Shown one piece after another: positions 1,370 through 16,951 of a stretch of 32,656 bases of DNA (position 1 is its first letter; every line of letters begins with the position of its first letter). Made by a program: the position numbers and the translations under genes. Source of the DNA: a bacterium. Its GTDB lineage: Bacteria; Patescibacteriota; Minisyncoccia; Sungbacterales; GWA2-42-14. The stretch covers positions 1 to 32,656 of the forward strand of contig JAUSFV010000029.1 of NCBI GenBank assembly GCA_030649305.1, written 5' to 3'. The notes beneath the pieces are model-generated. The model was not told the DNA's origin. It did not search any database and saw only the letters and a program-made list of their open reading frames with translations.

Positions 1370-1370
1370 C

Positions 1371-2130: not shown

Positions 2131-2139
2131 TCAGTATGA

Positions 2140-2817: not shown

Positions 2818-2818
2818 G

Positions 2819-3745: not shown

Positions 3746-3759
3746 CCCTTATGTTATTT
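3731..3759 (+). promoter_or_regulatory. Candidate promoter for the first island gene
   Basis: TTGACA (3731-3736) lies inside the last codons of map. It is followed after 17 bases by TTATTT (3754-3759), or after 15 bases by TGTTAT. It sits about 35-60 bases upstream of the gene at 3793. The -10 is weak, but TTGACA recurs before other island units. Confidence 0.45.
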
Positions 3760-3792
3760 ATGTATTAGTTCTTTTCGCGAAAGGAGGGAATG

Positions 3793-4272
3793 ATGGATAA
3801 GGTCGTGCAAAATACCCGGTATGAATCGCTTACTATGCAGGAAGATGAAGCGCGCCAAACTGCTGTCGTAAAAGAGACGGAAGAAAAAGAAAGAAAAAGA
3901 AAAGAGAAAATTGAACAAAAGATCCGGGCGCGTCAAAAGAAAGAACGAAAATTTGTTGCTTCATATCTGACTCGCAAATTCCCCCATATTTTTAAGGATG
4001 CGGGCGGCTCAATTGAATACGTCAAAGTTCGCCAAGAGGTTCAGCGTTTGTCCCGGGAAGAATTTGAAAAATTGCGCCGGTTTGAAGTGGCGCGCATGTG
4101 GCTTGGCATTTTCCTCGTCGGAATAAACATTTCGCTCATGTTTTCCGGATTGGTTATCGGCCGGTGGTTTGGCATATGTCCCGTCGGACCATTTTTTCTG
4201 ACCGTGGCCGCGGGAATCGGGGGAATAGTTCTCTCTTCCCGTTTTTTCCCTCGGGATATTGATTATATTTGA
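3793..4272 (+). CDS. Small two-TM protein, VVQNT-motif family, member 1
   Basis: This 159-residue protein of unknown function is the first gene of the island. Residues 4-12 (VVQNTRYES) carry the N-terminal motif shared by ten island proteins. A highly charged helix or coiled coil follows (about 16-53, rich in Lys and Glu). Next is the subfamily block SYL-x-R-x-FP-x-x-F (57-67) with LS-x-x-x-F (86-91). Two hydrophobic segments (about 102-123 and 129-148) suggest a membrane hairpin. Members at 4385 and 12397 share the SYL/FP/LS block. AAGGAGG lies 5 bases before the ATG at 3793, so that is preferred to the in-frame ATG at 3790. The unit ends at a clear terminator. I know no family with this architecture. 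Confidence 0.85.
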   Translation: MDKVVQNTRYESLTMQEDEARQTAVVKETEEKERKRKEKIEQKIRARQKKERKFVASYLTRKFPHIFKDAGGSIEYVKVRQEVQRLSREEFEKLRRFEVARMWLGIFLVGINISLMFSGLVIGRWFGICPVGPFFLTVAAGIGGIVLSSRFFPRDIDYI

Positions 4273-4280
4273 AATAGCGA

Positions 4281-4308
4281 AGCGGCATTGTGCCGCTTTT
4301 CTTTTTTT
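4281..4308 (+). terminator. Intrinsic terminator after island member 1
   Basis: The stem AGCGGCA/TGCCGCT has a TTG loop and is followed by TTTTC and seven T. Confidence 0.88.
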
Positions 4309-4316
4309 GTAGCTAC

Positions 4317-4345
4317 TTGACACAAAATTTTCTTCGTGCTACTTA
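4317..4345 (+). promoter_or_regulatory. Candidate promoter for the 4385-6376 unit
   Basis: TTGACA (4317-4322) is followed by a 17-base spacer and TACTTA (4340-4345); TATTAT at 4344-4349 is an alternative with a long spacer. It sits directly after a terminator and about 40 bases before the next start, so a promoter is expected here. The -10 choice is uncertain. Confidence 0.45.
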
Positions 4346-4384
4346 TTATTTTAAGATGTTTCACAATTAAAAAGGGGACGTATT

Positions 4385-4954
4385 ATGGCTATGGATATGG
4401 ATGGCGGAAGTGCTTTTCCCGCGGAAGTAAAGAAAGAAACTACCGGCGTTGCGCGGAACACCTATTATGAATCAATGCTCATGCGTCAGGTCGCTGGGCG
4501 CGAAGCGGAGCAAAAAAGAAAGGCCGAAGAAGCACAAAGAAGGGCAGAAGAAACACGAATCAGTATGGAAAAAAGCCAGAGAGAAGCAAAAGAAAGATTC
4601 CATAATACTCTTGTCGCGAGTTATCTCATCCGTCATTTTCCGGATGCGTTTCGTGATAAAACAAGCGGTGCATTAATTCGGGGGGTTGTCTTTGGGGAAG
4701 TTTCTCGGCTTTCCGAGGAAGCATTTAATCAGTTTCTTCGTTCAGAAAAAATAAAGTTTATTTGCAGTAATTCTTTGGCGTGGGGGGGATTTGCGGTAGC
4801 GTTTTCTGGTTTCATAATGGCGCTTGTCGTGAATAGCTTCTTATATTGTTTGGGGATTCCCGCGGGAATTTTTATGGGAATGTTCGGGCATAGAGTGTTT
4901 TCGCCTAGGCATCAGTTAAATATGTTGGCTTCAGAAAAGGGGGGAGCGGAATGA
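4385..4954 (+). CDS. Small two-TM protein, VARNT-motif family, member 2
   Basis: This 189-residue protein of unknown function carries GVARNTYYES (21-30), the family's N-terminal motif. A long Arg/Glu/Lys/Ala-rich predicted coiled coil follows (about 35-72). Residues 79-89 have the SYL-x-R-x-FP-x-x-F block, and RLS-EEAF follows (108-114). Two hydrophobic segments (about 131-150 and 152-168) form a likely membrane hairpin. It groups with the members at 3793 and 12397. The ATG at 4385 follows an AAAAAGGGGA site; in-frame ATGs at 4391 and 4397 are possible alternatives. Its stop overlaps the next start (ATGA), so it heads a translationally coupled run. Confidence 0.85.
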   Translation: MAMDMDGGSAFPAEVKKETTGVARNTYYESMLMRQVAGREAEQKRKAEEAQRRAEETRISMEKSQREAKERFHNTLVASYLIRHFPDAFRDKTSGALIRGVVFGEVSRLSEEAFNQFLRSEKIKFICSNSLAWGGFAVAFSGFIMALVVNSFLYCLGIPAGIFMGMFGHRVFSPRHQLNMLASEKGGAE

Positions 4955-5430
4955 ATCAGGAAACGAACGCTATTGTCAGACAGAGCCGGAAAGAAATCGT
5001 GCTTGAAGCACGCGGAGAGCTTCTTCGTAAGGCGCGTCGGGTGAAAATGGAACGGCATAAACAATACCGCACGAAAATTTGTACAAAAATCATGCGGCGG
5101 ATCGCGCACAAGCTTGGGCTTGGGTCAGTATATGATCTGAAACCGGAAGAGAAGGAGGCGCTCTTTTTGTTGTCACGGAGTTATTGTGTACGAAGCCTTT
5201 GCTGGAATATATTTCTCACCGGAGGGGCTCCTGCTATTTTGTGGGGACTGGGGTATAGCACGGCAACCATTATTTTTTTGAGCGCGCGTTTTTCTTTGTA
5301 CTTTATCCTTAATGTTGTTTCTTCGGCGTTCTCTTCCGAGGCGTTAAATTTCGGGTTGCCGAATTGGTGGGAGAAAATCGCATTTCTTTGTTTTGGGAGG
5401 AAATATGAAACGAAAGGAGGTAGTGAATGA
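4951..5430 (+). CDS. Small two-TM protein, IVRQS-motif family, member 3
   Basis: This 159-residue protein of unknown function has the N-terminal motif AIVRQSRKEIVLEAR (7-21), almost identical to the next gene at protein and DNA level, which points to tandem duplication. A basic helix follows (23-55). Then comes the subfamily block P-x-E-K-x-ALxLL...C-x-R-SLC (65-84). Two hydrophobic segments (about 85-111 and 113-127) precede a C-terminal P-x-WW-x-KI-x-FL motif (137-146, PNWWEKIAFL). Start and stop overlap the neighbours by ATGA, so coupling is likely. The same N- and C-terminal motifs are shared with members at 5427, 6511 and 7047, and more loosely 11209. Confidence 0.85.
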   Translation: MNQETNAIVRQSRKEIVLEARGELLRKARRVKMERHKQYRTKICTKIMRRIAHKLGLGSVYDLKPEEKEALFLLSRSYCVRSLCWNIFLTGGAPAILWGLGYSTATIIFLSARFSLYFILNVVSSAFSSEALNFGLPNWWEKIAFLCFGRKYETKGGSE

Positions 5431-5912
5431 GCCACGAAACGACCGCTATTGTCAGGCAAAGTCGGAAAGAAATCGTGCTTGAAGCGCGCGATAGGATTTT
5501 GCGGGAAGTAGAGGGCGCGCGTCAGATACAAAGAGGGGCAGAAAGAAAAGAGAGTTTTCAAAAGTCATTTGCCGCGATAGAACGATGGACCGCCGCTAAT
5601 GTCGGTATAGAAAAAGAACGGGTATCCTCTTTCACCTCAGATGAGAAGCAGGCTCTTGTTCTTCTGATGAAACGCGAATGCCGGAAAAGTCTTTGTAAGG
5701 TTGGATTTTTCACTAGTGCCGTGTTCGGAGGTATTGGCCTTCTTTCGCGGGTACACCATCCGGCGCACATTTTTTGGATTTTGGGTCTCTTGCTTTTTCA
5801 GTGGTTTTCTGCTCACGTAAATTCTCAGGTTCCGGATTCTCCTAATTGGTGGACAAAAATTGCTTTTCTTCGACGGATAGGAATGTATACAAAAGAAGAG
5901 GATACAAAATGA
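5427..5912 (+). CDS. Small two-TM protein, IVRQS-motif family, member 4
   Basis: This 161-residue protein of unknown function has an N-terminus (AIVRQSRKEIVLEAR, 7-21) that repeats the preceding gene. A charged helical stretch follows, then S-D-E-K-x-AL-x-LL (71-80) and C-x-KSLC (85-90). Two hydrophobic segments (about 91-107 and 114-129) are followed by the C-terminal motif PNWWTKIAFL (139-148). AAAGGAGG lies 6 bases upstream of the ATG. The ATGA overlap with the previous stop supports the start. Most divergence from member 3 lies in the middle, so the terminal motifs appear to be the conserved working parts. Confidence 0.85.
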   Translation: MSHETTAIVRQSRKEIVLEARDRILREVEGARQIQRGAERKESFQKSFAAIERWTAANVGIEKERVSSFTSDEKQALVLLMKRECRKSLCKVGFFTSAVFGGIGLLSRVHHPAHIFWILGLLLFQWFSAHVNSQVPDSPNWWTKIAFLRRIGMYTKEEDTK

Positions 5913-6376
5913 GCCAAGAAACAACGGCCATCGCGTGTCAGAATACAAAGGAGCGTCTGCTCGCGCGTATTGATGAGATGAAAACGCGCGCAATAGAGCA
6001 GAAGCAAAGCAGTGTAAAAAAGGATTCTGTTATTGAACATCAGCGTATGCTTCAGAGATTTGGCGAACATTACTTTTCTTTTTCTGAACGTGAGCTTCGG
6101 GGATTGAATTCGGAAGAGCTGTGCGCGTTTGACGCGGTGGTGGCAGAGCGCGTGCGGCGTCCCATCCGGAGATTTTGGATTTTTGAGGCGGTTACGATAG
6201 GAATATCCGGTGCTCTCGGGGTGTTCTTGCATCCGGTGACTTTTTTTGGGTTCTTTATACCTTTTGCGGCATGGGCGACGGTGTGGCTTGATAGCCTGGG
6301 AACGCATCGCCGTTTTTTACGTACACAAGCGGCATGGTCCGAGGAACAGGAAGCGCGTCTTCCAAAATCGGAGTAG
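5909..6376 (+). CDS. Small two-TM protein, IACQN-motif family, member 5
   Basis: This 155-residue protein of unknown function has the N-terminus MSQETTAIACQNTKERLL, which matches the first residues of member 4 (MSHETTAIVRQSRKEI). A helical region (20-60) is followed by N-S-E-E-L-x-AF (67-74) where relatives have x-x-E-K-x-AL. Two hydrophobic segments lie at about 89-107 and 110-128. The C-terminal WW-x-KI motif is missing; instead there is an Arg/Glu-rich tail. The start at 5909 overlaps the previous stop (ATGA); an upstream in-frame codon at 5846 lies inside the previous gene. A terminator follows. Confidence 0.82.
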   Translation: MSQETTAIACQNTKERLLARIDEMKTRAIEQKQSSVKKDSVIEHQRMLQRFGEHYFSFSERELRGLNSEELCAFDAVVAERVRRPIRRFWIFEAVTIGISGALGVFLHPVTFFGFFIPFAAWATVWLDSLGTHRRFLRTQAAWSEEQEARLPKSE

Positions 6377-6404
6377 TTGCTACGTCATCAGATTCTAAAG
6401 ACAT

Positions 6405-6453
6405 ACTAGTCAGGAATTCCCGCCTACGGGCAGGGGTCTTGACTAGTTTTTTT
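6405..6453 (+). terminator. Intrinsic terminator after member 5
   Basis: The outer stem ACTAGTCA/TGACTAGT (6405-6412 and 6440-6447) encloses an inner CCCG/CGGG hairpin and is followed by seven T. The TTGACT in its right arm looks like a -35 but is explained by the stem. Confidence 0.7.
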
Positions 6454-6467
6454 ATTTGTGCTACAGA

Positions 6468-6473
6468 TATAAT
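6468..6473 (+). promoter_or_regulatory. Candidate -10 box upstream of member 6
   Basis: A perfect TATAAT lies 38 bases upstream of the ATG at 6511, between a terminator and a strong SD. No good -35 at 16-18 bases was found (TTGACT is 23 bases away), so this is only a candidate. Confidence 0.35.
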
Positions 6474-6510
6474 GAATGTTTTTTTGACATTTTTTAAGGA
6501 GGAACCGGCT

Positions 6511-7050
6511 ATGTGGTTTCCGGGAAGAGTAGCAGAAACCCCCGCATCAATTGTTTCCGTATCTTCGGAAAATGAGCAGGGAGTTGCGCGTCAAAATATT
6601 CGCGAGATAGGGCTTTCCGAGGCCGAAAAAATTAAGGAACAGAATAAGGCGCGGCTTCTGGAAGAAAAAAGAAAGCGGCCCCTTGCGGTACGGGAGAAGA
6701 AAGAAAAGGCCCGGAAGGAAGCATATGAAAAAATCATGCGGCGTGTCGCGGGAAAATTCGGAATTACATACTACGGAAGTGATAAAAATAAACTTCTCGG
6801 CCTTGAATTTCTTGCGCGCCGCTGGTGCGGATTGTCACTGCTTCGTGTCGGGTCATGCAATGCGGCGATGGTCGGGGTGGTGTCTTGGATTGCATCGCTA
6901 TTTCCCAGTTTCGGAATTCCGTTTCTTGCCATGTTCGGTGTGATTTTTCTACTCGCTCATCTCGTAAGATTTGACGAGCCCGCGACACCCACATGGCTTG
7001 AGAAAATCCGGTTTCTCCGGGGCGCAGAAAAAGAGGGCTGGAAATCATGA
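6511..7050 (+). CDS. Small two-TM protein, VARQN-motif family, member 6
   Basis: This 179-residue protein of unknown function carries the motif GVARQNIRE (24-32). A Lys/Glu-rich coiled coil follows (36-75), then KIMRRVAGKFG (75-84), which resembles KIMRRIAHKLG in member 3. Next come D-K-x-K-LL-x-LEFLARR (91-104), two hydrophobic segments (about 110-131 and 134-152) and the C-terminal motif TPTWLEKIRFL (159-169). TAAGGAGG lies upstream of the ATG at 6511; the open frame extends to 6334 but that overlaps the previous gene and the terminator. The stop overlaps the next start by ATGA. Confidence 0.84.
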   Translation: MWFPGRVAETPASIVSVSSENEQGVARQNIREIGLSEAEKIKEQNKARLLEEKRKRPLAVREKKEKARKEAYEKIMRRVAGKFGITYYGSDKNKLLGLEFLARRWCGLSLLRVGSCNAAMVGVVSWIASLFPSFGIPFLAMFGVIFLLAHLVRFDEPATPTWLEKIRFLRGAEKEGWKS

Positions 7051-7655
7051 GTGTTGACGGATTTGATTTCAGGTATGAAGCGCGCCTAAGCGATGGAACG
7101 AATGCGTTGGGTGAAACATCCGTTGCGCGCCAGAGTGTACGGGAGCGCGCAATCGCGCGCCGGGAAGAAATTCTCGAAAAAATCGGCAAACAAAAACATG
7201 AGGCGCGTCTGCGTCGCCGCGAAAAGTTTAAACGTTCCCTCAAGACGACGCAGGAGCGTGTATCGGAATTTCCGATATCCTTCGGCAGATTTCTGGCGAA
7301 GCTTCCCGTAACAAGCGCGGGGAAGGGAATAAAGAGGGCGAGTGATCGGCTGGGTTATTCTTGGTATAGTGCGAATGAAGAAACAAAATTGGCGCTTTGT
7401 TCTATTGCGAAACGAAGGGCGTTCAAGAGTTTGTGCATTGGCGGAGCCGCGGATGCTCTGATACTTTGGGGATCGTGGAGTTTTCTTCACACTTTCACTG
7501 CTATTATTTCTTCTGCGGTGCTTTTGACGACACATGCCATGTGGGCGTCGGTAATAAATCGCGAGGACGAGAGACCGCAATGGTGGCAGAAGTTAAGTTG
7601 TCTTCTGGTGCCGGTGCGGGTTATGCGAAAGGCGAGATGGTGGGGCTCGTATTGA
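7047..7655 (+). CDS. Small two-TM protein, VARQS-motif family, member 7
   Basis: This 202-residue protein of unknown function is the longest of the small family. TSVARQSVRERA (24-35) is the shared motif. A long Arg-rich helical stretch follows (36-72), then N-E-E-T-x-LAL (110-117) and F-x-SLC (126-130). Two hydrophobic segments (about 131-150 and 150-169) precede the C-terminal motif PQWWQKLSCL (177-186). It is coupled to the previous gene through ATGA. The downstream gap holds an inverted-repeat element and a strong promoter. Confidence 0.84.
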   Translation: MSVDGFDFRYEARLSDGTNALGETSVARQSVRERAIARREEILEKIGKQKHEARLRRREKFKRSLKTTQERVSEFPISFGRFLAKLPVTSAGKGIKRASDRLGYSWYSANEETKLALCSIAKRRAFKSLCIGGAADALILWGSWSFLHTFTAIISSAVLLTTHAMWASVINREDERPQWWQKLSCLLVPVRVMRKARWWGSY

Positions 7656-7686
7656 TCCCCTAAGGGGCAGACTCGTGATGGGGTTG

Positions 7687-7799
7687 ACCCCGTTAGAAGT
7701 TCCGAATTATGACCTGCTTTTCAATGGTTTTTGAGCGAAGCGGCTTACGCCTTGCGTCATCGTGGGTATCGAACCCTCCCCGTAAACTTCTAACGGGGT
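7687..7799. repeat. MITE-like element 2 (CCCCGTTAGAAGT inverted ends)
   Basis: The ends are ACCCCGTTAGAAGTT (7687-7701) and AACTTCTAACGGGGT (7785-7799), a perfect 15-base inverted repeat around 83 bases of unrelated interior. The base just after the right end completes TTGACA, the -35 of the next promoter. No open frame inside resembles a transposase. Confidence 0.85.
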
Positions 7800-7827
7800 T
7801 GACAGGCACTTTCTTATATGCTATACA
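7799..7827 (+). promoter_or_regulatory. Promoter for the 7881 gene
   Basis: TTGACA (7799-7804) with a 17-base spacer and TATACA (7822-7827) lies 54 bases upstream of the start. The first T of the -35 is the last base of the inverted-repeat element, so its right end abuts and partly forms the promoter. Confidence 0.75.
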
Positions 7828-7880
7828 TTATTTAGTTCGCCAAAGGGCGATTTACAAAAATAAAAAAGAAAGGAGGAACC

Positions 7881-8897
7881 ATGGGAGCATTAGCAATACG
7901 GCCGCGCCGGTATTCCCGGGCAACACCCGAATGGAAAGATATTTTTGCGGATCTTACCGAGAAGCGGGAACAGTTTGAAGAAACCACGCAGGATTTGCTT
8001 GCGCTTCTGGAAAAGAAGCCAACATTTCTTCAGCGCATTCTGCGGGGTGCCGGAAAGGCATTGCCGATTCGGCGTCTCCACGACTATATAGACGAGCAGG
8101 CAAGTCCGCTTACCGTTGCGGGTAAATTGATGCGCGAGCATCTTCTGGATTATCAGGAGGGAATTCTTCTCCTGAAAGATCGCGCGGAAATTACGCTTGA
8201 GGAACAAAAAGAGATCGCGCGTACGATCGCGCAAGCGAAAGCAGAGGGATGGGACGAGGAACAGCTTTTCGATTATGTCCTGAAGTCGCTTGCGGAAGAA
8301 GACATTAATCTTCAAGTAGACCCCAAGGTTGCGGGCATCATGCGCATTTTCAGCGAGAATGCTTCTCCGGAAGAGCGCAAAGCCCTTGCCGCGAAACTCA
8401 TGGAGCACTTTGAGGGGCTTCTTGAAACGTTTGAGAAATCGGAGCGCGCGGTCATTGCCGCGTGTGATACCACGATTAACGTCTTCATGCGCTATCTCCT
8501 TCAATACTGGGCCTATGCGAAGACGGAGCCGGTTGTCTCTGATATGCGCGAGGTTGCAATTAACATGACGCAGTCCGAACGCGCCGCATTCGTCGCAAGG
8601 GATCTTCTCATACGAACGGTGCAGGATTCCCGCCAAGCGATTATGGCGGTCATTCAAGCGGCAGAGGTGCTTGATAGGTCGCGCATCACCGGGGCGGAAC
8701 TTATGAAAGAATTACAGGCGATGGATCGGGATGTGACGGGACGCCTTCGGGCGTTGAACGCGGCACCCGCGCAACAAGCCATTGTGGCGGGCGCGGAAGC
8801 CCATGCGCAGGTGGTGGACGCGGAATTTATTGCGGTCGAGCGTGCGGATATTGAGCGTGCGGAGGATACCGCAACCACAAAGGAGGTGACGGAATGA
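7881..8897 (+). CDS. Helical 338-aa cytoplasmic protein, unknown
   Basis: I do not recognise this protein. It is 338 residues, without signal peptide or clear membrane segment, and almost wholly helical by composition (Ala, Glu, Leu, Arg). An N-terminal basic stretch (MGALAIRPRRYSR) precedes P-E-W-K-D-I-F. Coiled-coil-like stretches occur around 25-60, 155-190 and 250-300, and the C-terminus is acidic. The ATG at 7881 has AAAGGAGG 5 bases upstream and a strong promoter. Its stop overlaps the next start (ATGA). TelA-type helical proteins were considered but no signature was found. Position in the island suggests a scaffold or adaptor for the membrane proteins; this is a guess. Confidence 0.8.
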   Translation: MGALAIRPRRYSRATPEWKDIFADLTEKREQFEETTQDLLALLEKKPTFLQRILRGAGKALPIRRLHDYIDEQASPLTVAGKLMREHLLDYQEGILLLKDRAEITLEEQKEIARTIAQAKAEGWDEEQLFDYVLKSLAEEDINLQVDPKVAGIMRIFSENASPEERKALAAKLMEHFEGLLETFEKSERAVIAACDTTINVFMRYLLQYWAYAKTEPVVSDMREVAINMTQSERAAFVARDLLIRTVQDSRQAIMAVIQAAEVLDRSRITGAELMKELQAMDRDVTGRLRALNAAPAQQAIVAGAEAHAQVVDAEFIAVERADIERAEDTATTKEVTE

Positions 8898-9145
8898 GCA
8901 AGTTTTTTGGTTCTCGTTCGGGCAAGGATCCGGCTGAGAAGATCGGCAAAGGAATCGTGATTGCGAGCGGTGCCGCAGTTACCTATTTCGTGATATATCC
9001 CGTTGTCTCGGCTGTCGTCGGAATTGCAACGGGTATCGCTACCATCGGACTTGGTGTTGGTGCCGCCGCCTACGGGTATCGATGGATGACGAAACGGTAT
9101 CGTTCCGAGAATAGGGGTACATCGTTGCGGAGGTATCGCGACTGA
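8894..9145 (+). CDS. Small membrane protein, 83 aa
   Basis: This unknown protein has a basic N-terminus, a Gly/Ala/Val/Ile-rich hydrophobic region with two likely helices (about 20-43 and 45-62), and a strongly basic C-terminus (RWMTKRYRSENRGTSLRRYR). It overlaps the preceding gene by ATGA, with GGAGGTG upstream, and the next gene by TGATG, so translation is probably coupled. Confidence 0.75.
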   Translation: MSKFFGSRSGKDPAEKIGKGIVIASGAAVTYFVIYPVVSAVVGIATGIATIGLGVGAAAYGYRWMTKRYRSENRGTSLRRYRD

Positions 9146-9357
9146 TGACCTCTCCGGAACGGATGCTTTTGAAAGCGGCTCTTGCATACGCGAAAGGGAG
9201 AGGGGCGCTTTTCCTTCGCAAGCGCGGCGGTAAGGTTGTGGAGTGCGCAAAGCGCATTGCCGAAGACGCGGCGCATGAAGCGGGCCGCCTCAAAGCGCGG
9301 TTTGACCAAGGTATTGAGGAATACAGAAAAAGACAGGCGGAACAAAAAGATCCGTAA
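9145..9357 (+). CDS. Small basic helical protein, 70 aa
   Basis: This unknown protein is rich in Lys, Arg, Ala and Glu, with no membrane segment, and is probably one or two long helices. The start at 9145 overlaps the previous stop (TGATG) and a GCGGAGGT site lies upstream. The coupling and spacing are the main support that it is a real gene. Confidence 0.65.
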   Translation: MTSPERMLLKAALAYAKGRGALFLRKRGGKVVECAKRIAEDAAHEAGRLKARFDQGIEEYRKRQAEQKDP

Positions 9358-9358
9358 G

Positions 9359-9550
9359 ATGATAAAAATGAGTAATTGGTGGAAAATCGGTAAGGGCGTC
9401 CTAATAACTATTATTGGCAGTGGAGTTACTCAAGTCCCATTGGTATCTCTGTTGGGATATCTGATTATGCTTCCGGGCCTATATATTTTTATGAAAGGTA
9501 TTGACGGCATCTTGGGGGCAACAGGAGTCGGAAAAAACAACAAAAGATGA
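9359..9550 (+). CDS. Small membrane protein, 63 aa
   Basis: This unknown protein has a basic amphipathic N-terminus (MIKMSNWWKIGKG) followed by hydrophobic segments (about 13-32 and 33-46) and a basic tail. The ATG at 9359 lies one base after the previous stop; an in-frame ATG at 9368 is also possible. The open frame upstream overlaps the previous gene and is not used. A terminator follows, so this ends the 7881-9550 unit. Confidence 0.65.
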   Translation: MIKMSNWWKIGKGVLITIIGSGVTQVPLVSLLGYLIMLPGLYIFMKGIDGILGATGVGKNNKR

Positions 9551-9578
9551 GTTATCTAAAGATTAGGTACTAGCTTGG

Positions 9579-9601
9579 GGGCTTCTTAGGAAGCCCTTTT
9601 T
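9579..9601 (+). terminator. Intrinsic terminator of the 7881-9550 unit
   Basis: The stem GGGCTTC/GAAGCCC has a TTAG loop and is followed by TTTTT. Confidence 0.88.
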
Positions 9602-9661
9602 AATTTGCCCACGTCAGAAAATTACGGGAGTTAGGGTAATGAAGTTGTCGCGTTCGGTAAT

Positions 9662-9689
9662 TTGACAAAATTTGTATTTATGATAAAAT
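9662..9689 (+). promoter_or_regulatory. Promoter for the rhomboid gene
   Basis: TTGACA (9662-9667), a 16-base spacer and TAAAAT (9684-9689) lie about 55 bases before the start, downstream of a terminator. Confidence 0.75.
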
Positions 9690-9743
9690 ATACAAAGTTC
9701 AGATTATGTCTGTGGATCCTTGATAAACAAAGGAGATAGCGCC

Positions 9744-10313
9744 ATGTCGAGCCGTTCTTTGCGGATGACCTACAATGCTCCGGTGATTCTTACGTTTTCT
9801 CTTCTTGCCCTGACAGCACTTGTCGTAGATATGTGGACGTCCAAGACCATTATTACTCCGCTCTTTGCGGCAACTCCCTATTTTCGGTTTTGGTCGCCGA
9901 TTGATTATGTCCGTCTTTTCTCGTATATCGTGATTCACGCTGACTGGACCCATTTCTCTTCGAATTTTATTCTGATCCTCCTACTCGGCCCGATGCTTGA
10001 GGAGAAGTATGGTTCAATCATGATACTCGTTATGATGTTGATAACGGCGTTCGCGACCAGCATCATCAATGTGATGTTTTTCACGACGGGTCTCGTCGGG
10101 GCAAGCGGAATAGTTTTTCTGTTTATTGTTTTGAGTTCCTTCGCGAATAGCCGCGAGGGGGAAATCCCCGTGACGTTTCTTGTGGTGGGCGCGCTTTTTT
10201 TTAGCAATGAGGTGATGAATGCTTTGGCCAATGATAACGTGTCGCAATTCGGACATATTCTCGGCGGCGTGTGCGGGGCCGGCTTCGGCTATTGTTTCAG
10301 GAACCGCAGATAA
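9744..10313 (+). CDS. Rhomboid-family intramembrane serine protease
   Basis: This is an inner-membrane protease that cleaves transmembrane segments within the bilayer. The 189-residue protein has about six hydrophobic segments. The H-x4-H-x3-N signature is at H65, H70 and N74 (HADWTHFSSN). The catalytic Ser is in GASG (S121) and the partner His in FGHILGG (H171). The size is that of a minimal six-helix rhomboid. AAGGAGA lies 8 bases before the ATG at 9744; the frame extends a few codons upstream without support. It stands in the middle of the membrane-protein island, so island membrane proteins are plausible substrates (inference). Confidence 0.9.
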   Translation: MSSRSLRMTYNAPVILTFSLLALTALVVDMWTSKTIITPLFAATPYFRFWSPIDYVRLFSYIVIHADWTHFSSNFILILLLGPMLEEKYGSIMILVMMLITAFATSIINVMFFTTGLVGASGIVFLFIVLSSFANSREGEIPVTFLVVGALFFSNEVMNALANDNVSQFGHILGGVCGAGFGYCFRNRR

Positions 10314-10334
10314 AGCAGAAACGGAGGAACGAGC

Positions 10335-11174
10335 ATGGATTATGATGCGGTTGGTCTTGATTTTGATGATGCGCTCGTGTATCCGCGGGAGCATAGTATT
10401 TCCGATATGCCATCAGCACCGGACAACATTGTTTCTTCCGGGGAAGATATTCTCTCCCGTATCCGGTTTCTTACTGCAGAAGAATCGCTTACGCGCCTCG
10501 AACCCCTCGTTGATGCCGTGCGGAATTGCCGCGTGGCGCACGACGCGGGAAAGTGGGTGTCGTCTCTCATGAAGCCCGCGTTTCTTCTCCTACTTGAAGC
10601 GCACGCAAAGGCCGTTTCGTATCTTAAAGATTCGCCCGCACCCTCGCTTGTTCCGTGGGATGAGCGAACGGGGTTCCCGTCCGTATCGGCTCTTTTTGGC
10701 GATGCGGGTTGGTGGCGGAAGCAGAGCGAAGGCACGGAAAAAATTCTTCTTTCCTCGTGCGGTGATTGGGCTGTATGGAAGCGCGAGACGCTTCAGTGTG
10801 CCTGCGGCCGTCTGCGGAGCCGTCTGCGTCCGCTTGAGCTTGATATCATGATCCGCCACGACCTTTCAACGAAGGATGACGGCATGGTGCTCCGTGTCTC
10901 GGGGGGCGTGAAGAGTTCGGACAAGGCGTTTCGGCATCACTTCGGAAAAGAGTGGGCATATCGCGTGAACGATACGCTTATCGGGATTCCGCTTGATGCG
11001 TGTCTCCTGCGCATACGAAAGAAAGCAGTTTCAGGAACAATTGAAGTTGAGATACGGAAGTTCTCTGAGGAAAAAATCGGTGAAGAGTTCAATCGTGAGG
11101 CGTTGTATCGCATGTTGAGCGACGCGCTCGGGGGATGGGACCGTCCGGTGCGGGGCGGTGGTGTCGCGGCATAG
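10335..11174 (+). CDS. Unrecognised 279-aa soluble protein
   Basis: I do not recognise this protein. It has an acidic N-terminus (MDYDAVGLDFDDAL), a helical middle (about 45-105) and a probable beta-rich C-terminal half containing a C-x-C-G segment (LQCACGRLRSRL, about 154-165). No signal peptide or membrane segment is visible. ACGGAGGA lies 7 bases upstream of the ATG, so the start is secure. It lies 21 bases after the rhomboid stop and is probably co-transcribed with it. No catalytic motif was found. Confidence 0.8.
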   Translation: MDYDAVGLDFDDALVYPREHSISDMPSAPDNIVSSGEDILSRIRFLTAEESLTRLEPLVDAVRNCRVAHDAGKWVSSLMKPAFLLLLEAHAKAVSYLKDSPAPSLVPWDERTGFPSVSALFGDAGWWRKQSEGTEKILLSSCGDWAVWKRETLQCACGRLRSRLRPLELDIMIRHDLSTKDDGMVLRVSGGVKSSDKAFRHHFGKEWAYRVNDTLIGIPLDACLLRIRKKAVSGTIEVEIRKFSEEKIGEEFNREALYRMLSDALGGWDRPVRGGGVAA

Positions 11175-11208
11175 TCGCATAATAAGAGCCAAAAAGAAGG
11201 AGGAAACA

Positions 11209-11694
11209 ATGCCGAATATTGTTCAGCAAAACTCTTTTGATAAGATTGTGGCGATGCGCGAGGCGTCGTTTGTAAAGCTACGAGAAATAAAAAAACGTAA
11301 GCAGGAAGAGCACATCAGGGAACGCTACTCCGAACTTTTGCAGAGATTCCTGAATTACTATACGAAGTGTAGTTCGAATTCTCTTTCGTCAGACGTTAAG
11401 GTGGCACTGGAGGAGATGGTCACAAAGTCTTCATATAGAAAAATTTGTGCCGTAGCAGTTCCGTCGTGTCTTGGCACCGCATATCTCACGGTTGCATTTT
11501 CATGGGCGGGATTTGGGCTTGGTGTGATGGTGAGTATTTTGTATGCTTGCGCTGTGGGGCTGTTACAATTTTTTTCTTGCGCCTATGATTTTACCTGGGT
11601 TAATGCGATTCGCTTTCTTTTTGCGAAACATCGCGAGAAGAAGCGCATCGCGGAAAAAAGTAGCGAGCCATTTCCGCATGAGGTAACGTTTTGA
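11209..11694 (+). CDS. Small two-TM protein, IVQQN-motif family, member 8
   Basis: This 161-residue protein of unknown function begins with MPNIVQQNSFDKIV, the shared N-terminal motif. A charged helix (18-45) is followed by S-D-V-K-x-ALEEM (61-70). Two hydrophobic segments lie at about 79-97 and 101-121. The C-terminal block FTWVNAIRFLF (128-138) corresponds to the P-x-WW-x-KI-x-FL motif of members 3, 4, 6 and 7. AAGGAGG lies before the ATG; the open frame from 11158 overlaps the previous gene. Its stop overlaps the next start by TGATG. Confidence 0.83.
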   Translation: MPNIVQQNSFDKIVAMREASFVKLREIKKRKQEEHIRERYSELLQRFLNYYTKCSSNSLSSDVKVALEEMVTKSSYRKICAVAVPSCLGTAYLTVAFSWAGFGLGVMVSILYACAVGLLQFFSCAYDFTWVNAIRFLFAKHREKKRIAEKSSEPFPHEVTF

Positions 11695-12236
11695 TGGCTT
11701 ACGAAGAAATGGAATCGGGTGTTGCGCGGCAGAATTCGCGCGAGGAAATATTAACGCTTCGTAAGGAATGGCGGGTGCGCCTTGCCGTTGAAAAACGAGA
11801 ACTTGAGGAGCGCCGTCGGAAAGAAAGGGAGCAGGAGGCTCTGCGGAGAGAGGAAGAAGATAAGCGGGAAATACTTCTTCATCGCGCGCGTTCCTTTCGG
11901 GTCATGTATGAAAAACTTCTTGAACAGTTTTCGGACAGCTACTTTGGCACTCAGGGTGTATTCAAGAGTTTAAACGAGTTCCAAAAAGAAGCGCTTGCGG
12001 ATATCTGCGAAACGCGCTGTCGCTGGGGACTCTGGAGTGCGGCGGGGCTCTTCGTTCCGATGCTTTTCATGAAGTTGTATGCGTATCTTCATGCTCAGGA
12101 GGCAGTACAGTTTCTTTCTTGCCGCAGATGGTTGCGCCGTGTTGCGAAAGACTCCTCTCTTCAGGAAATTGTACGAGAGGAGCCGTCACACGGACAGTGG
12201 AAGTGCAGATTGGGGCGTAAGTCAATATATTGGTAG
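11694..12236 (+). CDS. Small membrane protein, VARQN-motif family, member 9
   Basis: This 180-residue protein of unknown function has SGVARQNSREEIL (8-20), the clearest example of the shared motif. A long Arg/Glu coiled coil follows (22-68), then F-Q-K-E-ALADI (96-104). Only one clear hydrophobic segment is seen (about 112-132). A tail with AVQFLSCRRWLRR (137-149) may be a degenerate C-terminal motif. The ATG at 11694 overlaps the previous TGA; an upstream TTG at 11691 is in frame but unlikely. A terminator follows. Confidence 0.82.
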   Translation: MAYEEMESGVARQNSREEILTLRKEWRVRLAVEKRELEERRRKEREQEALRREEEDKREILLHRARSFRVMYEKLLEQFSDSYFGTQGVFKSLNEFQKEALADICETRCRWGLWSAAGLFVPMLFMKLYAYLHAQEAVQFLSCRRWLRRVAKDSSLQEIVREEPSHGQWKCRLGRKSIYW

Positions 12237-12242
12237 TATTTC

Positions 12243-12270
12243 ACGGTCGTATTCCACGGCCGTTTTTTTT
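12243..12270 (+). terminator. Intrinsic terminator after member 9
   Basis: The stem ACGGTCG/CGGCCGT (one wobble pair) has a 7-base loop and is followed by eight T. Confidence 0.85.
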
Positions 12271-12327
12271 ATTTCACGTTGTTTGTCCTTGCGGTGTTTC
12301 GTATGGGTATTCAATTGTTTGCGTCTA

Positions 12328-12355
12328 TTGACACGAAAAGAAAATTGTGTAAAAT
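12328..12355 (+). promoter_or_regulatory. Promoter for member 10
   Basis: TTGACA (12328-12333), a 16-base spacer and TAAAAT (12350-12355) lie 42 bases before the start of the 12397 gene and after a terminator. Confidence 0.75.
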
Positions 12356-12396
12356 ATACTTAGAAACAATTTGTGTTGCGGAGAGGATAGAGTGCT

Positions 12397-12768
12397 ATGC
12401 GTGAGGTGCGTGCAATGCGGCGAATTGTCGAGAACACGTCCTTTGAGAAATTACTATTGGAGGAGGAAAAGAAAAAGCGGTGGGATAGTATTCGAAAGCA
12501 AAGGGGCCTCGCACGTGTTGAGAAATTTTCCGGTCGGGAAACGGTAGAAAGAAAGAAAATGACGTTTCGTCTGCTGTCGTGCTATTTGCGGCTCGCGTTT
12601 CCCGTGTTGTTCCGTAATCGTTCGTCCGGAGAAGTTATTAGTTATCTGAATACGCTTTCTCAATCTGCTTTTGATGATCTTCTCAAAAGAGCTCGCGCGC
12701 GACTGAAATTGCTCTTTGGCGCGGGGGCCGTCTCTCTTGGGGGGGTGCTGGTACTCCTTCTCTTATAA
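12397..12768 (+). CDS. Small one-TM protein, IVENT-motif family, member 10
   Basis: This 123-residue protein of unknown function has RRIVENTSFEKLL (8-20), the shared motif. A basic helix follows, then CYLRLAFPVLF (62-72) with TLSQSAF (86-92), the same SYL/FP/LS block as in the proteins at 3793 and 4385. It ends within the first hydrophobic segment (about 105-123), so compared with those two it lacks the second helix and tail; it may be a shortened family member. GGAGAGG lies 10 bases before the ATG. It has its own promoter and terminator. Confidence 0.78.
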   Translation: MREVRAMRRIVENTSFEKLLLEEEKKKRWDSIRKQRGLARVEKFSGRETVERKKMTFRLLSCYLRLAFPVLFRNRSSGEVISYLNTLSQSAFDDLLKRARARLKLLFGAGAVSLGGVLVLLLL

Positions 12769-12781
12769 ATAAGTATACTGT

Positions 12782-12807
12782 ATCGCCCCTCCGGGGCGAT
12801 TTTGTTT
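12782..12807 (+). terminator. Intrinsic terminator after member 10
   Basis: The stem ATCGCCCC/GGGGCGAT has a TCC loop and is followed by TTTGTTT. Confidence 0.85.
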
Positions 12808-12825
12808 ACGTTTTTTCGGGGGCCC

Positions 12826-12853
12826 TTGACAAATTTTATAGATTTGTTATCCT
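12826..12853 (+). promoter_or_regulatory. Promoter for the ubiquitin-like operon
   Basis: TTGACA (12826-12831), a 16-base spacer and TATCCT (12848-12853) lie directly after a terminator and about 58 bases upstream of the E2-like gene. All four pathway genes follow without another terminator until 16501. Confidence 0.65.
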
Positions 12854-12911
12854 TTTTTTAGTTTCATTAAAAAAACATATCGTATTCATGAGTGAAAAAG
12901 GAGCCGATTCT

Positions 12912-14261
12912 ATGGATGTTTTTGGCGATGGGCGTGTGGTATCTCAAAACTTGGCCGTAGTCCCGGAGGACATCGTTGAGAAAAAAGAGGTTTTATTTCC
13001 GCCCTCTCTTTTTCAGACGCCGCTTGTTGATGCGGGCGGAAATATCTGGATGATTGAGGAGCGGATAAAAAAGATTTTTGGCATCTGGTCGTCGCGGCAG
13101 TATCGTTTGGGGCGGTTTGCGGTCGGTTTCGGAGATTCGTTGAAAGCCATAATCCGTCTCGTGATTGAAAAAATTTGTCGCGTATGGATTGAGAAAGACG
13201 TGCGTCCGGCAACGGACATGTTGCGAAATGCGGCAGTACCTCTTTTGAATGAGTGCGTTACGCTTGGGGGGCGCCAGTTTCGAAGGGCGTTTATGGAGAA
13301 ACTCGGCGCGCACGGAGAAAGAATATGGACAAAGATTCTTGAGGAGCAGTTTGATGAAATTGGAAGTATCTGGAAGAGAAAACAGGAAAAAGATGAAGGA
13401 GGCATATTGGCGTCGGGCTTGCTTCCTCCGCAGACGCGCTTTTGGTGGCAATGGATGTCGGGGGGAAAGACGGTTACTCTTTTCTGCCTTGAGTCGCCTC
13501 CGCAGAAGCGCGTTATCACTCTTTTAGGAACGCGAAGACATCTTGCGTTTCCCTGGATATATTTTTTTATTCGTTTTGAGGATAACGCGTTCAGGATGTT
13601 GCATGCGTTTTATCGCGGGAGTCGTTTGCAGGGCGGGGGTGATATGCTGTATTTTCCCAATCTGCCGAATGTATATCCCGGTCCGCCATTTTCGGTTTGT
13701 CTTGGTCAGAATCGACCGACGATTAAACTCTCCGATCCGCTTTGGTGCGATACGCTCCTCGGATGGTTCTGGGATAGTAGTTTCAGGTCAGACGGAGCGA
13801 ATACCATGGATATATGGGAAACGTCGTGCCGTACCATTCCCGAGGTTGCAAGTGCGCAGCATTGGGCTGATTTTTCAAAAAAGGATCCTGATGCCGTGAC
13901 AAAACTTTCCTGGCTTTCCACCGGGAAGTCGTTGGATGCTTTTGTGTCTATCAGTCGGGATATAAAATCAGACGTTGTGCCTTCAGCAAAGGAGGATCTG
14001 GGTCGGCGGGAGCGGGGACTCATTAGCCGTTTCCGGACTCAATTGGAAGAAGAATTTCATTTTCTTGCCGGGCATTTCGGCGTTCCGGTTGATGTGCATG
14101 ATGCGGCTGTTCAATTTTTGCAAAAGCACACGGCCGAACTTGCTGAAGGAGTGACGAAGGCCTTGGATGCGCGATGCAGTGTGGCGATAGGAGATGAAGT
14201 ACAGGCGTGTATTGGAGACAATATTCGTCTTTCCAACGCGGTGAAAGGAGGATTGGTATGA
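12912..14261 (+). CDS. E2-like protein, PRTRC system protein B-like
   Basis: This is a candidate ubiquitin-conjugating-enzyme-like protein of 449 residues. Residues about 185-293 resemble the PRTRC protein B / prokaryotic E2 family: a strand-rich segment (VTLFCLES, ITLLG), AFPWIYFFI, then LYFPNLPNVY (246-255) and the core SVCLGQ (261-266). C263 is the candidate thioester Cys, followed by LGWFWDSSFRSD (283-294). The flanks are specific to this protein: an N-terminal 180 residues with RVVSQN (8-13), which resembles the island membrane proteins' motif, and a helical C-terminus. AAGGAG lies 8 bases before the ATG at 12912, preferred to the in-frame ATG at 12888. It is followed by JAMM, E1-like and ubiquitin-like genes. 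The E2 call rests on remembered family motifs and context. Confidence 0.7.
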   Translation: MDVFGDGRVVSQNLAVVPEDIVEKKEVLFPPSLFQTPLVDAGGNIWMIEERIKKIFGIWSSRQYRLGRFAVGFGDSLKAIIRLVIEKICRVWIEKDVRPATDMLRNAAVPLLNECVTLGGRQFRRAFMEKLGAHGERIWTKILEEQFDEIGSIWKRKQEKDEGGILASGLLPPQTRFWWQWMSGGKTVTLFCLESPPQKRVITLLGTRRHLAFPWIYFFIRFEDNAFRMLHAFYRGSRLQGGGDMLYFPNLPNVYPGPPFSVCLGQNRPTIKLSDPLWCDTLLGWFWDSSFRSDGANTMDIWETSCRTIPEVASAQHWADFSKKDPDAVTKLSWLSTGKSLDAFVSISRDIKSDVVPSAKEDLGRRERGLISRFRTQLEEEFHFLAGHFGVPVDVHDAAVQFLQKHTAELAEGVTKALDARCSVAIGDEVQACIGDNIRLSNAVKGGLV

Positions 14262-15478
14262 TTTCTATCTGGATTAAAGACGGGAGGACACAACCGCCTT
14301 CGGATAACGGGTATTACATTCTTGCGGCAAATGGGACATTCCTGAGGAAGGTGAATCCGTACTGGGAAGCTGTGGTGCCGGTGGATCGCATAAGCGTGCT
14401 TGAGAACGAATCGCAGAACCTTACTTTGTTTTTGCCGCAAATTCCGGCAGAATTGACCCAGGATATTATACGTTTTTTTGCGTGGGTCTATAAGACGCAC
14501 GGCACCGAAGCGATGCTTCTTTTGTGGATTCACGAGAAAGATAGGACATATCGTCTTTCGGCTCCCGTGCGGCAGATTGTTTCCTCCGCGCGTATTCATA
14601 CCTACGAGATTCCGACACGCATGCCGGGTGAGCGTTTAATCGGCACTTTCCATTCACACGGCGCCATGGGAGCGTTTCATTCGGGAACCGACTGTTCGGA
14701 TGAATTATCAATAAACGGAATTCACGGCACGATTGGCTGTCTTTCTCTCGGGAAAGATGCCATTGGGTATAATGTCAGCTTGGAAGCATCCGTGAATGGC
14801 ACCCGATTTTCGCTTGAGCCGGAGGCGTGGCTGGTGGGTCTTTCCCGTGAGCAGGAGGAAGCGCGGGACGAGTATGCCGGTGCTACTCTAGCGGTGGAGG
14901 ATTCTGAAAATTCCGATGGCGCGTCGCATGAGACGACACGTGAGCGGGAAGCGGATTCGCCCGCGGATAGTATTTTTCCGGCGGGAAATAAAGTTGTATC
15001 GTCTGACGCAAGCTTTGCGACAGATACGGAGAAGGAAGGCGTTGTGGAGATGAACGCTTTCGATGGCGGGGCATCTTCCAAAAACCTTTCTCTGAAATTG
15101 CGAAAGCGTTCTTTTGAGAGATATCGTTTCGCGCCAGCGTATCAAATGGCGCATGACGGTGCGTATGAACCGCCTCCAGTGTGGCGTGAAAGTATTGTGG
15201 TTCAGTCTTTCTGGTCTCCGTGGGCCGCTCGACGGGCTGAGGGTCATGATCCTGCGAGAGAACTGGCCGAATCAACAGCCGGCGTCGGGTCGGAACCGGC
15301 ACAATATGGGGATGGTATGATTTCGCTTCCGGGTAGGAAGAAATCTTATTTCTTTGTTGTACCTCGGCCCCGGGAGGATTCTCCCGGTGTGATAGCCGGC
15401 TTCAGATCATTTTTAGAACGTAGGAAGGCCACGCGGAAGAAAAAAAGAGAACAGCAAGGAGAACAAAAAAATGTCTAG
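14258..15478 (+). CDS. JAMM/JAB metalloprotease, PRTRC system protein A-like
   Basis: This is a likely zinc isopeptidase that processes or removes the ubiquitin-like protein. The 406-residue protein has a complete JAMM signature: H132-S-H134, seven residues, S142, two residues, D145. An upstream Glu (E84, TEAMLLLWI) is in the place of the catalytic Glu. An N-terminal domain (1-65) precedes the JAB domain (about 66-190), an order like PRTRC protein A. Residues about 195-290 are a Ser/Glu/Asp-rich linker, and the C-terminus is strongly basic. AAAGGAGG lies 7 bases before the ATG at 14258, which overlaps the E2-like stop. Its own end overlaps the E1-like start, so the three are translationally coupled. 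Confidence 0.9.
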   Translation: MISIWIKDGRTQPPSDNGYYILAANGTFLRKVNPYWEAVVPVDRISVLENESQNLTLFLPQIPAELTQDIIRFFAWVYKTHGTEAMLLLWIHEKDRTYRLSAPVRQIVSSARIHTYEIPTRMPGERLIGTFHSHGAMGAFHSGTDCSDELSINGIHGTIGCLSLGKDAIGYNVSLEASVNGTRFSLEPEAWLVGLSREQEEARDEYAGATLAVEDSENSDGASHETTREREADSPADSIFPAGNKVVSSDASFATDTEKEGVVEMNAFDGGASSKNLSLKLRKRSFERYRFAPAYQMAHDGAYEPPPVWRESIVVQSFWSPWAARRAEGHDPARELAESTAGVGSEPAQYGDGMISLPGRKKSYFFVVPRPREDSPGVIAGFRSFLERRKATRKKKREQQGEQKNV

Positions 15479-16178
15479 GGCGGTATTGATTGGGCTCGGA
15501 GGCATCGGTTCTCATCTTGCGGAGCCGCTTGCGCGAACGCTTGTGTTCACAGAGTATCCTCGCGCGCCGGATCGTTTATTGCTTATTGACGGCGATAGGT
15601 ACGAAGAGAAAAATATTTTGCGCCAGCGTGTTTTGCGTCATGGCAATAAAGCGGAGGAGACGGCGGAGATTCTCTCGGGGCTTTTCCCGAAACTTTCGGT
15701 AGAGGCAAAACCGCGTTATGTTGATGTTGAAAATATGTATCTTTTCGTGCGCGAGGACGATGTGGTTTTCCTTGCGGTAGACAATCACGCGACACGAAAG
15801 ATCGTTGCGGAACACGTCGCGACGCTTCAAAACATCCTTTTTATTTCGGGAGGCAATGAGGAATACGACGGCAATACGCAGGTGCATTTGCGGGAGGGCG
15901 GGCGTGACAGAACGCCTCCTCTCACGTGGCAGCATCCCGAAATTCAATCTCCGGCAGATAAGCATCCGGGGGAGCGCGCGTGCGGAGAATTAATCGCGGA
16001 GGGTTCCGCGCCCCAGCTTCTTGCCGTGAATTTCATGATCGCGGCGTTGATGCTTTCTGCCTTTACCCTCTGGCTTCAGGAAAAGCCGTTGTCCTACGGC
16101 GGTTGTTACCTGAATCTTTTGAGCGGCAATGTCAGGCCGGAGAGTTTAAAATATTGGAACGCGCGGGAGACGGCGTAG
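15471..16178 (+). CDS. ThiF/E1-like adenylating enzyme
   Basis: This enzyme likely adenylates the C-terminus of the ubiquitin-like protein and passes it to a Cys. The 235-residue protein is a single ThiF-type Rossmann domain. The nucleotide-binding loop is GLGGIGS (8-14). IDGDRYEEKNILRQ (39-52) holds the usual Asp, Asn and Arg residues for ATP/Mg, and AVDNHATR (102-109) is the conserved D-N-x-x-x-R segment. C171 (GERACGELI) is the candidate catalytic Cys. Eukaryotic-type extra domains are absent. No ThiG, MoaE or other cofactor genes are near, which argues against thiamine or molybdopterin synthesis. The start overlaps the JAMM stop and has AAGGAGA upstream. Confidence 0.9.
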   Translation: MSRAVLIGLGGIGSHLAEPLARTLVFTEYPRAPDRLLLIDGDRYEEKNILRQRVLRHGNKAEETAEILSGLFPKLSVEAKPRYVDVENMYLFVREDDVVFLAVDNHATRKIVAEHVATLQNILFISGGNEEYDGNTQVHLREGGRDRTPPLTWQHPEIQSPADKHPGERACGELIAEGSAPQLLAVNFMIAALMLSAFTLWLQEKPLSYGGCYLNLLSGNVRPESLKYWNARETA

Positions 16179-16252
16179 ATCTGTCTCGTAAAAATGAAAA
16201 ACCCAGCCGGAGGGAATTCGGTAAAAAACAAAACAAAAAAGGAGGAGTTGTC

Positions 16253-16495
16253 ATGAGCGAAGTACGAAGTGATAGGCCGGTTAAGGTGATTGCGGGTGCG
16301 GAAACCGAGTATTTTGACGAAATTGAAGGTATAACAGTTTTGGAACTCCGCGATAAATTGCGTGAAATTCTCAATATCACGCCGGATCACAAAATTGTAC
16401 TGGTGAATGGCCGCGAAGTGCTTGCGGGCGAATACCGCGTAGCGGGCGGTGACGAGGTGGAATTCAAAAAGCCATCCGGTGAGAAGGGTGTGTAG
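16253..16495 (+). CDS. Ubiquitin-like beta-grasp protein ending Gly-Val
   Basis: This is the candidate modifier of the pathway. It has 80 residues and a beta-grasp-like pattern: strand VKVIAG (10-15), strand TEYFDEI (18-24), helix VLELRDKLREIL (29-40), strand KIVLVNGREV (47-56), and the ThiS-like turn AGGDEVEFKK (64-73). The tail is PSGEKGV, so removal of one residue would leave a C-terminal Gly as in ubiquitin-like and PRTRC C-type proteins (which end G-x-K-G). GGAGG lies upstream of the ATG at 16253; the open frame to 15980 overlaps the E1-like gene. It is the last gene before a terminator. A ThiS/MoaD role was considered but the context points to the E1/E2/JAMM set. Confidence 0.78.
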   Translation: MSEVRSDRPVKVIAGAETEYFDEIEGITVLELRDKLREILNITPDHKIVLVNGREVLAGEYRVAGGDEVEFKKPSGEKGV

Positions 16496-16500
16496 TAGTA

Positions 16501-16530
16501 AGAGGGGTATTGCACCCCTCTTTTCTTTTT
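16501..16530 (+). terminator. Intrinsic terminator of the ubiquitin-like operon
   Basis: The stem AGAGGGGT/ACCCCTCT has an ATTGC loop and is followed by a T-rich run. It marks the island's right end. Confidence 0.88.
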
Positions 16531-16564
16531 GTTTTTTATACAAAAAATTGATACTATTACAATA

Positions 16565-16951
16565 ATGAAATATCTGGGCATTGATTACGGGAAAAAACGG
16601 ATTGGGTTGGCACTCTCTGATGAGGAAGGAAAAATTGCGTTTCCGCGCACACAACTTACAACCTACAACGCACAACTTACAACTAAAATAATCGGAGATA
16701 TTATTAAAAAGGAGGGGGTAGAAAAAATCGTTGTTGGGGTTCCCGTGACATTTGGCGGAAAAGAGTCGGCGCAAACGGTTGAGGCGCGCGCATTTGGTGA
16801 GAAGCTTCAAAAAGCGGTACAATTACCGGTAGAGTATGAGAATGAACTTCTGACGACGAAGATGGCGTTGAAGGGCGGTGTTGCGAAAAATAAAGTGGAC
16901 GCGGCATCTGCGGCGATTTTGCTGCAATCCTATCTTGATAAGTTGAATTAA
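16565..16951 (+). CDS. ruvX: Holliday junction resolvase-like RuvX/YqgF
   Basis: This is a small RNase H-fold nuclease implicated in rRNA processing or Holliday junction resolution. The 128-residue product has GIDYGKKRIGLALSD (5-19) with the catalytic Asp, VVGVPVTFGG (56-65), a conserved E-x-E-LLTT-x-MA segment (92-101), and KNKVDAASAAILLQSYL (108-124) with the last Asp. Residues about 29-40 (TQLTTYNAQLTT) replace the usual linker and are encoded by a direct repeat. The start at 16565 gives the family N-terminus; no SD is present. Confidence 0.92.
   Translation: MKYLGIDYGKKRIGLALSDEEGKIAFPRTQLTTYNAQLTTKIIGDIIKKEGVEKIVVGVPVTFGGKESAQTVEARAFGEKLQKAVQLPVEYENELLTTKMALKGGVAKNKVDAASAAILLQSYLDKLN
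16651..16684. repeat. Direct repeat inside ruvX
   Basis: ACAACTTACAAC occurs at 16651-16662 and again at about 16672-16683, with a related CCTACAACGC between. The frame reads through it. Confidence 0.75.

Follow-up and report, generated by a model that had tools for sequence, protein, structure and literature searches.

The locus described here raises the question of whether a bacterium with a very small genome encodes a whole pathway for the conjugation of ubiquitin-like proteins (Ubls), and to which of the known pathways such a system would be related. The four genes concerned occupy positions 12,912 to 16,495 of contig JAUSFV010000029.1 (assembly GCA_030649305.1; Patescibacteriota, Sungbacterales), which was analyzed over its whole length of 32,656 nucleotides and is called the window below. 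The contig belongs to a genome of 1.02 Mb in 54 contigs, 94.7% complete, in which one ThiF-family protein was found and whose nearest genome with a named record is assigned to the Parcubacteria group. Bacterial Ubl conjugation has been characterized mostly in defense operons, and the PRTRC systems, or operon class 6d, have been predicted since 2006; no earlier report of a Ubl conjugation cassette in Patescibacteria was found in the open-licence literature. It is proposed here, with a probability of about 0.72, that the four genes form a compact, self-contained and reversible Ubl conjugation pathway, which would be sister to PRTRC (class 6d).

The four genes are consecutive on the + strand and form one operon, with the following features:

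12782..12800, + strand: intrinsic terminator belonging to the gene before the operon, whose upstream border it marks (8-bp stem with 6 G-C pairs, T-rich tail)
12826..12853, + strand: sigma-70-type promoter, TTGACA-16-TATCCT with TG before the second hexamer (10/12 matches; consensus match only)
12912..14261, + strand: E2-like protein, 449 amino acids (core about 165-300, predicted catalytic Cys263)
14258..15478, + strand: JAMM/MPN+ peptidase, 406 amino acids (Prok-JAB and PRTRC_A profile matches, intact motif)
15471..16178, + strand: ThiF/E1-like adenylating enzyme, 235 amino acids (PF00899, 1.1e-18; catalytic residues)
16253..16495, + strand: Ubl beta-grasp protein, 80 amino acids (ThiS-like profile, C-terminal K-G)
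16500..16522, + strand: intrinsic terminator of the operon, 3' of the Ubl gene (9-bp stem, T-rich tail)

The start codon of the JAMM gene (ATG at 14258) and the stop codon of the E2 gene share an ATGA overlap, the E1 gene (15471) overlaps the JAMM stop by 8 nt, and the starts of all four genes are backed by ribosome-binding sites read off the sequence. In the case of the E2-like gene, AAAGGAG at about 12896-12902 precedes the ATG at 12912, which is the correct start, the longer frame from 12888 being merely mechanical. The original prediction of four consecutive, coupled genes between one promoter and one terminator was therefore borne out, and its assignment of the four activities (E2-like, JAMM, ThiF/E1-like and Ubl) proved right by motifs and profile matches, as set out for each protein below.

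The E1-like enzyme carries the expected motifs, GLGGIG at residues 7-12 and VDNHATR (D-N-x-x-x-R) at 103-109, in addition to its match to the Pfam ThiF family. The genomes compared are mostly draft assemblies, and residue conservation was counted here, as for the other proteins, wherever genes were readable. D40, N48, R51, Q52, K60, D104 and Cys171 are invariant in nine sequences from the candidate phyla radiation (CPR), and Cys171, the predicted transfer cysteine, is kept in 14/14 PRTRC-type E1s. The zinc CxxC motifs present in E. coli MoeB and ThiF occur in none of the CPR E1s, and a Pfam search revealed no rhodanese domain in the window E1. At the profile level, MoeB, Uba4 and ThiF match best among PDB entries, the Rossmann core matches E1-E2 models at 3.6e-6, TIGR03736 matches eight of the nine E1 relatives (best 2.7e-16), and comparison by hhalign with PRTRC ThiF gave a P-value of 9.3e-42. 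The E1 tree places the CPR sequences in a single clade (support 99/95) next to a PRTRC clade (93/95), with MoeB and ThiF (90/94) separate from both. As this tree contains no E1s of Bil, Bub or CBASS, and as similarity to the window E1 served to pick its PRTRC rows, the sister status of the CPR E1s is valid only against MoeB and ThiF. A scan of viral contigs yielded no close E1 relative, and tblastn searches in phages gave distant ThiF-type matches only, two of which were PRTRC-like and were added to the tree.

The JAMM peptidase carries the full H-x-H-x7-S-x2-D signature that had been noticed, as H132-S-H134-x7-S142-x2-D145 together with E84, and these five residues are invariant in all eight relatives. 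It matches Pfam Prok-JAB at 29.1 bits, over the cut-off, and the PRTRC_A profile at 2.4e-10, the latter matching 8/8 JAMM relatives; the hhalign comparison with PRTRC A gave a P-value of 3.5e-24. The protein consists of an N-terminal alpha+beta domain, which aligns with that of PRTRC A, and a long low-complexity C-terminal tail, and its profile gave a marginal match to BilC (8tyx; E 0.81).

In the E2-like protein, the core contains P-N-V-Y...V-C263-L-G within the fuller motif N-L-P-N-V-Y-x6-V-C-L-G, which resembles that of classical E2s (HPN...C-L) except that the His is replaced. Cys263 is invariant in 9/9 relatives, being one of five invariant columns besides the start Met. The E2 assignment made from the V-C-L-G core stood at the profile level: the hhalign comparison with PRTRC B gave a P-value of 7.6e-12 with the cysteines aligned and a score of 87, versus at most 16.6 for 30 column-shuffled controls. 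Additionally, Prok-E2_D (PF14460) matches three of the nine E2 relatives (best 1.8e-6, 28.2 bits, in L035, above the cut-off). Among PDB sequences, the E2 profile found no match. The N- and C-terminal extensions are long and, according to a low-confidence model, mainly helical, and no transmembrane (TM) segment was found in the window E2.

The Ubl is a single-domain protein that ends, as had been read, in GEKGV, in which Gly79 is the predicted conjugation residue and Val80 is extra. The C-terminal Lys-Gly is invariant in the eight readable Ubls, and only that of the window has one further residue. The ThiS profile matches five of eight Ubl relatives (best 1.5e-5) and the window Ubl at E=0.0066, below the Pfam cut-off.

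The same gene set was found side by side in unrelated CPR families. Relatives of the cassette, traced by its E1, occur in eight other Patescibacteria genomes, and the full order E2-JAMM-E1-Ubl, for which these genomes were searched, recurs in L011 (G046), L032 (G602), L033 (G480) and L034 (G537). In L035 (G571) the ubl gene comes first, in L004 (G108) E2-JAMM-E1 is present twice in tandem, with a degenerate ubl after the second copy (137-6064), and L014 (G313) has a partial E1 and a Ubl only, at the contig edge. Since the E1, JAMM and E2 relatives adjoin one another in these other genomes, the cassette is not a chance assembly. Its distribution is sporadic: it was found in 5/380 genomes of a phylum-wide draw and 6/384 of a class-wide draw, the genome of the window being counted in both. 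Some of these loci have features of their own. The E2 of G480 (L033:6858-9164, - strand; 768 amino acids) includes a fused N-terminal part in which four TM helices are predicted, and in G046 the gene of a two-TM protein overlaps the E2 gene. In L034, a second, very divergent ThiF-family protein of 376 amino acids (2856-3986) lies directly 3' of the Ubl and is followed by genes that look, by eye, like an AMP-forming ligase and then a histidine ammonia-lyase.

The closest known layout had been said to be that of PRTRC proteins B, A, ThiF and C. The first three terms of this comparison held, as the E2, JAMM and E1 are homologous to B, A and ThiF and stand in the same order, B-A-ThiF; the JAMM N-terminal domain, a small Ubl with Lys-Gly at or near its end and a mobile, sporadic distribution are likewise common to both. 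The fourth term failed, given that no homology between the Ubl and PRTRC C was detectable by profile comparison, the terminal Lys-Gly being all that they have in common, and that the CPR ubl gene is usually the last of the operon, whereas in PRTRC it lies ahead of B (the annotated plasmid order is E, C, a further protein, B, A, ThiF). None of the window proteins reached the cut-off of an NCBIfam PRTRC model: PRTRC_A and PRTRC_ThiF matched far below theirs (40.3 versus 101.8 bits and 42 versus 144.75 bits, respectively), and the B and C models had no match. Operon class 6d was described as having an E2 Cys with an absolutely conserved downstream His, a Ubl Gly, a JAMM N-terminal domain with a strictly conserved Arg and Trp, and a separate, largely helical protein (Iyer et al. 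2006; PMC1779556). Of these features, the E2 Cys is present in the CPR cassette; the Ubl Gly is invariant in 8/8 but is followed by Val in the window, and the Ubl has no profile match to PRTRC C; the His and the separate helical gene are absent, and neither the Arg nor the Trp is strictly conserved in the CPR set. Furthermore, unlike PRTRC, the CPR cassette has E1s in a separate clade, E2s with long extra regions, four genes only (PRTRC E and F being absent) and a location in a chromosomal island. No ParB was found among the ten window proteins screened, in agreement with the original prediction. The CPR E2, JAMM and E1, judged by their sequences, are thus homologues of PRTRC B, A and ThiF (class 6d) in a separate sister clade, and the operon is not a PRTRC cassette.

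Comparable cassettes occur on Firmicutes plasmids, on cyanobacterial plasmids and in one Bacillus phage, and several PRTRC relatives on plasmids and phages adjoin genes for replication, repair or partition. In some plasmid and phage cassettes, the Ubl-like stretch with KG either continues into a tail or is joined to the N-terminal side of the JAMM domain, which fits processing by the JAMM peptidase. In two Firmicutes plasmids (L017:5979-6920 and L064:4547-5920), such a stretch ending in KKG precedes the JAMM domain in one protein, suggesting that these fusions may be self-processing precursors.

The comparison with Bil-type operons, which had also been drawn, held for the gene content, since Ubl, E2, JAMM deubiquitinase and E1 are four separate genes in both, but not for the modifier: BilA has two Ub-like domains (PMC11354881) and the window Ubl has one, and membership in Bil was rejected on this architecture. 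Type II CBASS (Cap2/Cap3) and other E1-E2 fusions have a similar E1 core, whereas E1 and E2 are separate proteins in the CPR cassette, and no CD-NTase was found among the ten neighboring proteins screened.

The gene set, the operon structure, the homology of E1, JAMM and E2 to class 6d and every residue that such a pathway requires are present in the window, and reversible Ubl conjugation is strongly suggested by this combination. The individual chemical steps, the removal of Val80 and the protein nature of the targets are inferred from it. The JAMM peptidase would trim Val80 off the Ubl; the E1 would bind ATP and adenylate the exposed C-terminal Gly79; the Ubl would move onto Cys171 of the E1 as a thioester and be handed to Cys263 of the E2, which would join it to an amine of target proteins without a dedicated E3; and the JAMM peptidase would cleave it off the targets again. 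In five relatives that have a JAMM gene, the Ubl already ends in Gly, so the common role of the peptidase is more likely deconjugation than maturation, the latter applying, if at all, to Val80 of the window Ubl.

Several observations weigh against this proposal. The window E2 on its own matched no Pfam family, and the E2s of the window, L032 and L033 have no His where the alignment would place the one downstream of the Cys, which some plasmid members lack as well. AlphaFold models were uninformative on fold for both the E2 (three-sequence alignment; pLDDT 39.8) and the Ubl (single sequence; pLDDT 62.5), and a Foldseek search with the latter returned nothing significant. The set is not always whole, as L012 (G163) has E2-E1-Ubl without a JAMM gene, and no intact Ubl was found in G108, a 99%-complete genome in which the ubl start at 5954-6064 is frameshifted and truncated. 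Additionally, no biochemistry of PRTRC/6d systems was found in the open-licence literature.

The cassette was predicted to be embedded in a membrane-protein island, which was confirmed by ten paralogues and by comparison of the map-ruvX region with all five other genomes of the family. In all five, map, ruvX and a glycosyltransferase gene lie close together, ruvX following next after map in each, and the cassette is absent. The corresponding features of the window are:

3746..16567, + strand: lineage-specific island between map and ruvX, about 12.8 kb, holding the cassette (compared with the five same-family genomes)
3790..7655, + strand: seven small membrane/coiled-coil paralogues (3790, 4391, 4951, 5427, 5909, 6511, 7047; BLAST and alignment)
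11209..12768, + strand: three more paralogues (11209, 11694, 12415), directly upstream of the operon (BLAST and alignment)

In the ten paralogues, [IV][VA]xx[QN][NST] recurs as an N-terminal motif, together with a charged coiled-coil stretch and with hydrophobic segments at the C-terminal end, and that at 12415 has its own promoter (12328-12355). Among the genomes tested, their main subfamily was found only in that of the window, and there only in the island; the eight other cassette genomes lack it. An N-terminal motif common to the E2 and the membrane paralogues was considered and rejected, as 248/2000 shuffles score as high. The island also holds a rhomboid-family protein and, at 7881-9357, three successive proteins, of which the first (338 aa) matches no family convincingly, the second (83 aa) is hydrophobic and the third has 70 aa. 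The window yielded no tRNA, and hence none adjoins the island. Outside the island, two consecutive adenylate-kinase-like genes were seen by eye between secY and map (1423-2817).

Regarding the role of the cassette, a part in conflict between the cell and mobile DNA, or in stress, is likelier than a housekeeping one because of the acquired island, the sporadic distribution and the kinship with mobile-element systems. One candidate role, compatible with the mechanism proposed above, is anti-phage defense in the manner of Bil or CBASS, in which the Ubl would be joined to a phage protein or an immune sensor. The distribution and the location in an acquired island fit this role, for which Bil (PMC11354881) and type II CBASS (PMC10097602) are precedents, but a PADLOC screen of the ten proteins revealed no CD-NTase, toxin or other defense gene, the Ubl is single-domain unlike BilA, and the position of several PRTRC relatives beside replication, repair or partition genes suggests element biology over host defense. 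Defense is thus a possible role, with the odds against it.

It is unlikely, though equally compatible with the mechanism, that envelope proteins are the targets and that the neighboring coiled-coil membrane paralogues act as substrates or partners. The ten paralogues fill the island of the cassette, and a membrane link, which is not general, is suggested by the E2 of G480 with its four TM helices and by the two-TM neighbor in G046; however, none of the eight other cassette genomes has the paralogue subfamily, the E2 and the paralogues have no N-terminal motif in common, and the window E2 has no TM segment. A wider form of this idea is equally doubtful: Patescibacteria would have a Ubl conjugation family of their own, separate from those of PRTRC, Bil, Bub and CBASS, in which the modifier is ThiS/MoaD-like, part of the E2s are anchored in the membrane, and the targets are envelope proteins of cells that are reduced and mostly attached to hosts.

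A different chemistry would apply if the Ubl were a ThiS/MoaD-type sulfur carrier whose thiocarboxylate, made by the E1, served a cofactor, tRNA or metabolite pathway, with the E2-like protein and JAMM as accessories. The Ubl profile is indeed nearest to ThiS/MoaD, and the E1 profile finds its best PDB matches, as mentioned, in MoeB, Uba4 and ThiF; ThiS-ThiF and MoaD-MoeB also pair a beta-grasp Ubl with an adenylating enzyme of the same active-site residues. In contrast, the CPR cassette adds a JAMM peptidase and a Cys-bearing E2 homologue, which stand alongside in nearly every relative, and its E1 has neither a rhodanese domain nor the zinc CxxC motifs. The reading of the 16253 protein as a plain ThiS/MoaD retained its family likeness and lost its pathway, a cofactor role being very unlikely because neither ThiG (12.3 bits versus a cut-off of 23) nor MoaE was found in the 94.7%-complete genome, nor was a second ThiF-type enzyme. 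Finally, a decaying remnant of a mobile element whose pathway no longer works, to which the lost JAMM of L012, the degenerate Ubl of G108 and the extra residue of the window Ubl might point, is very improbable against four open frames with good ribosome-binding sites, coupled genes, a promoter, a terminator and all catalytic residues intact in the window.

Reversible Ubl conjugation by a cassette sister to PRTRC is thus the preferred reading of the locus. With a minimal set of four genes, in a CPR genome of 1 Mb and without partners for replication or partition, this cassette represents the simplest material for testing the 6d branch, and would indicate, as far as gene content and residues allow, that even bacteria with very small genomes have such pathways.

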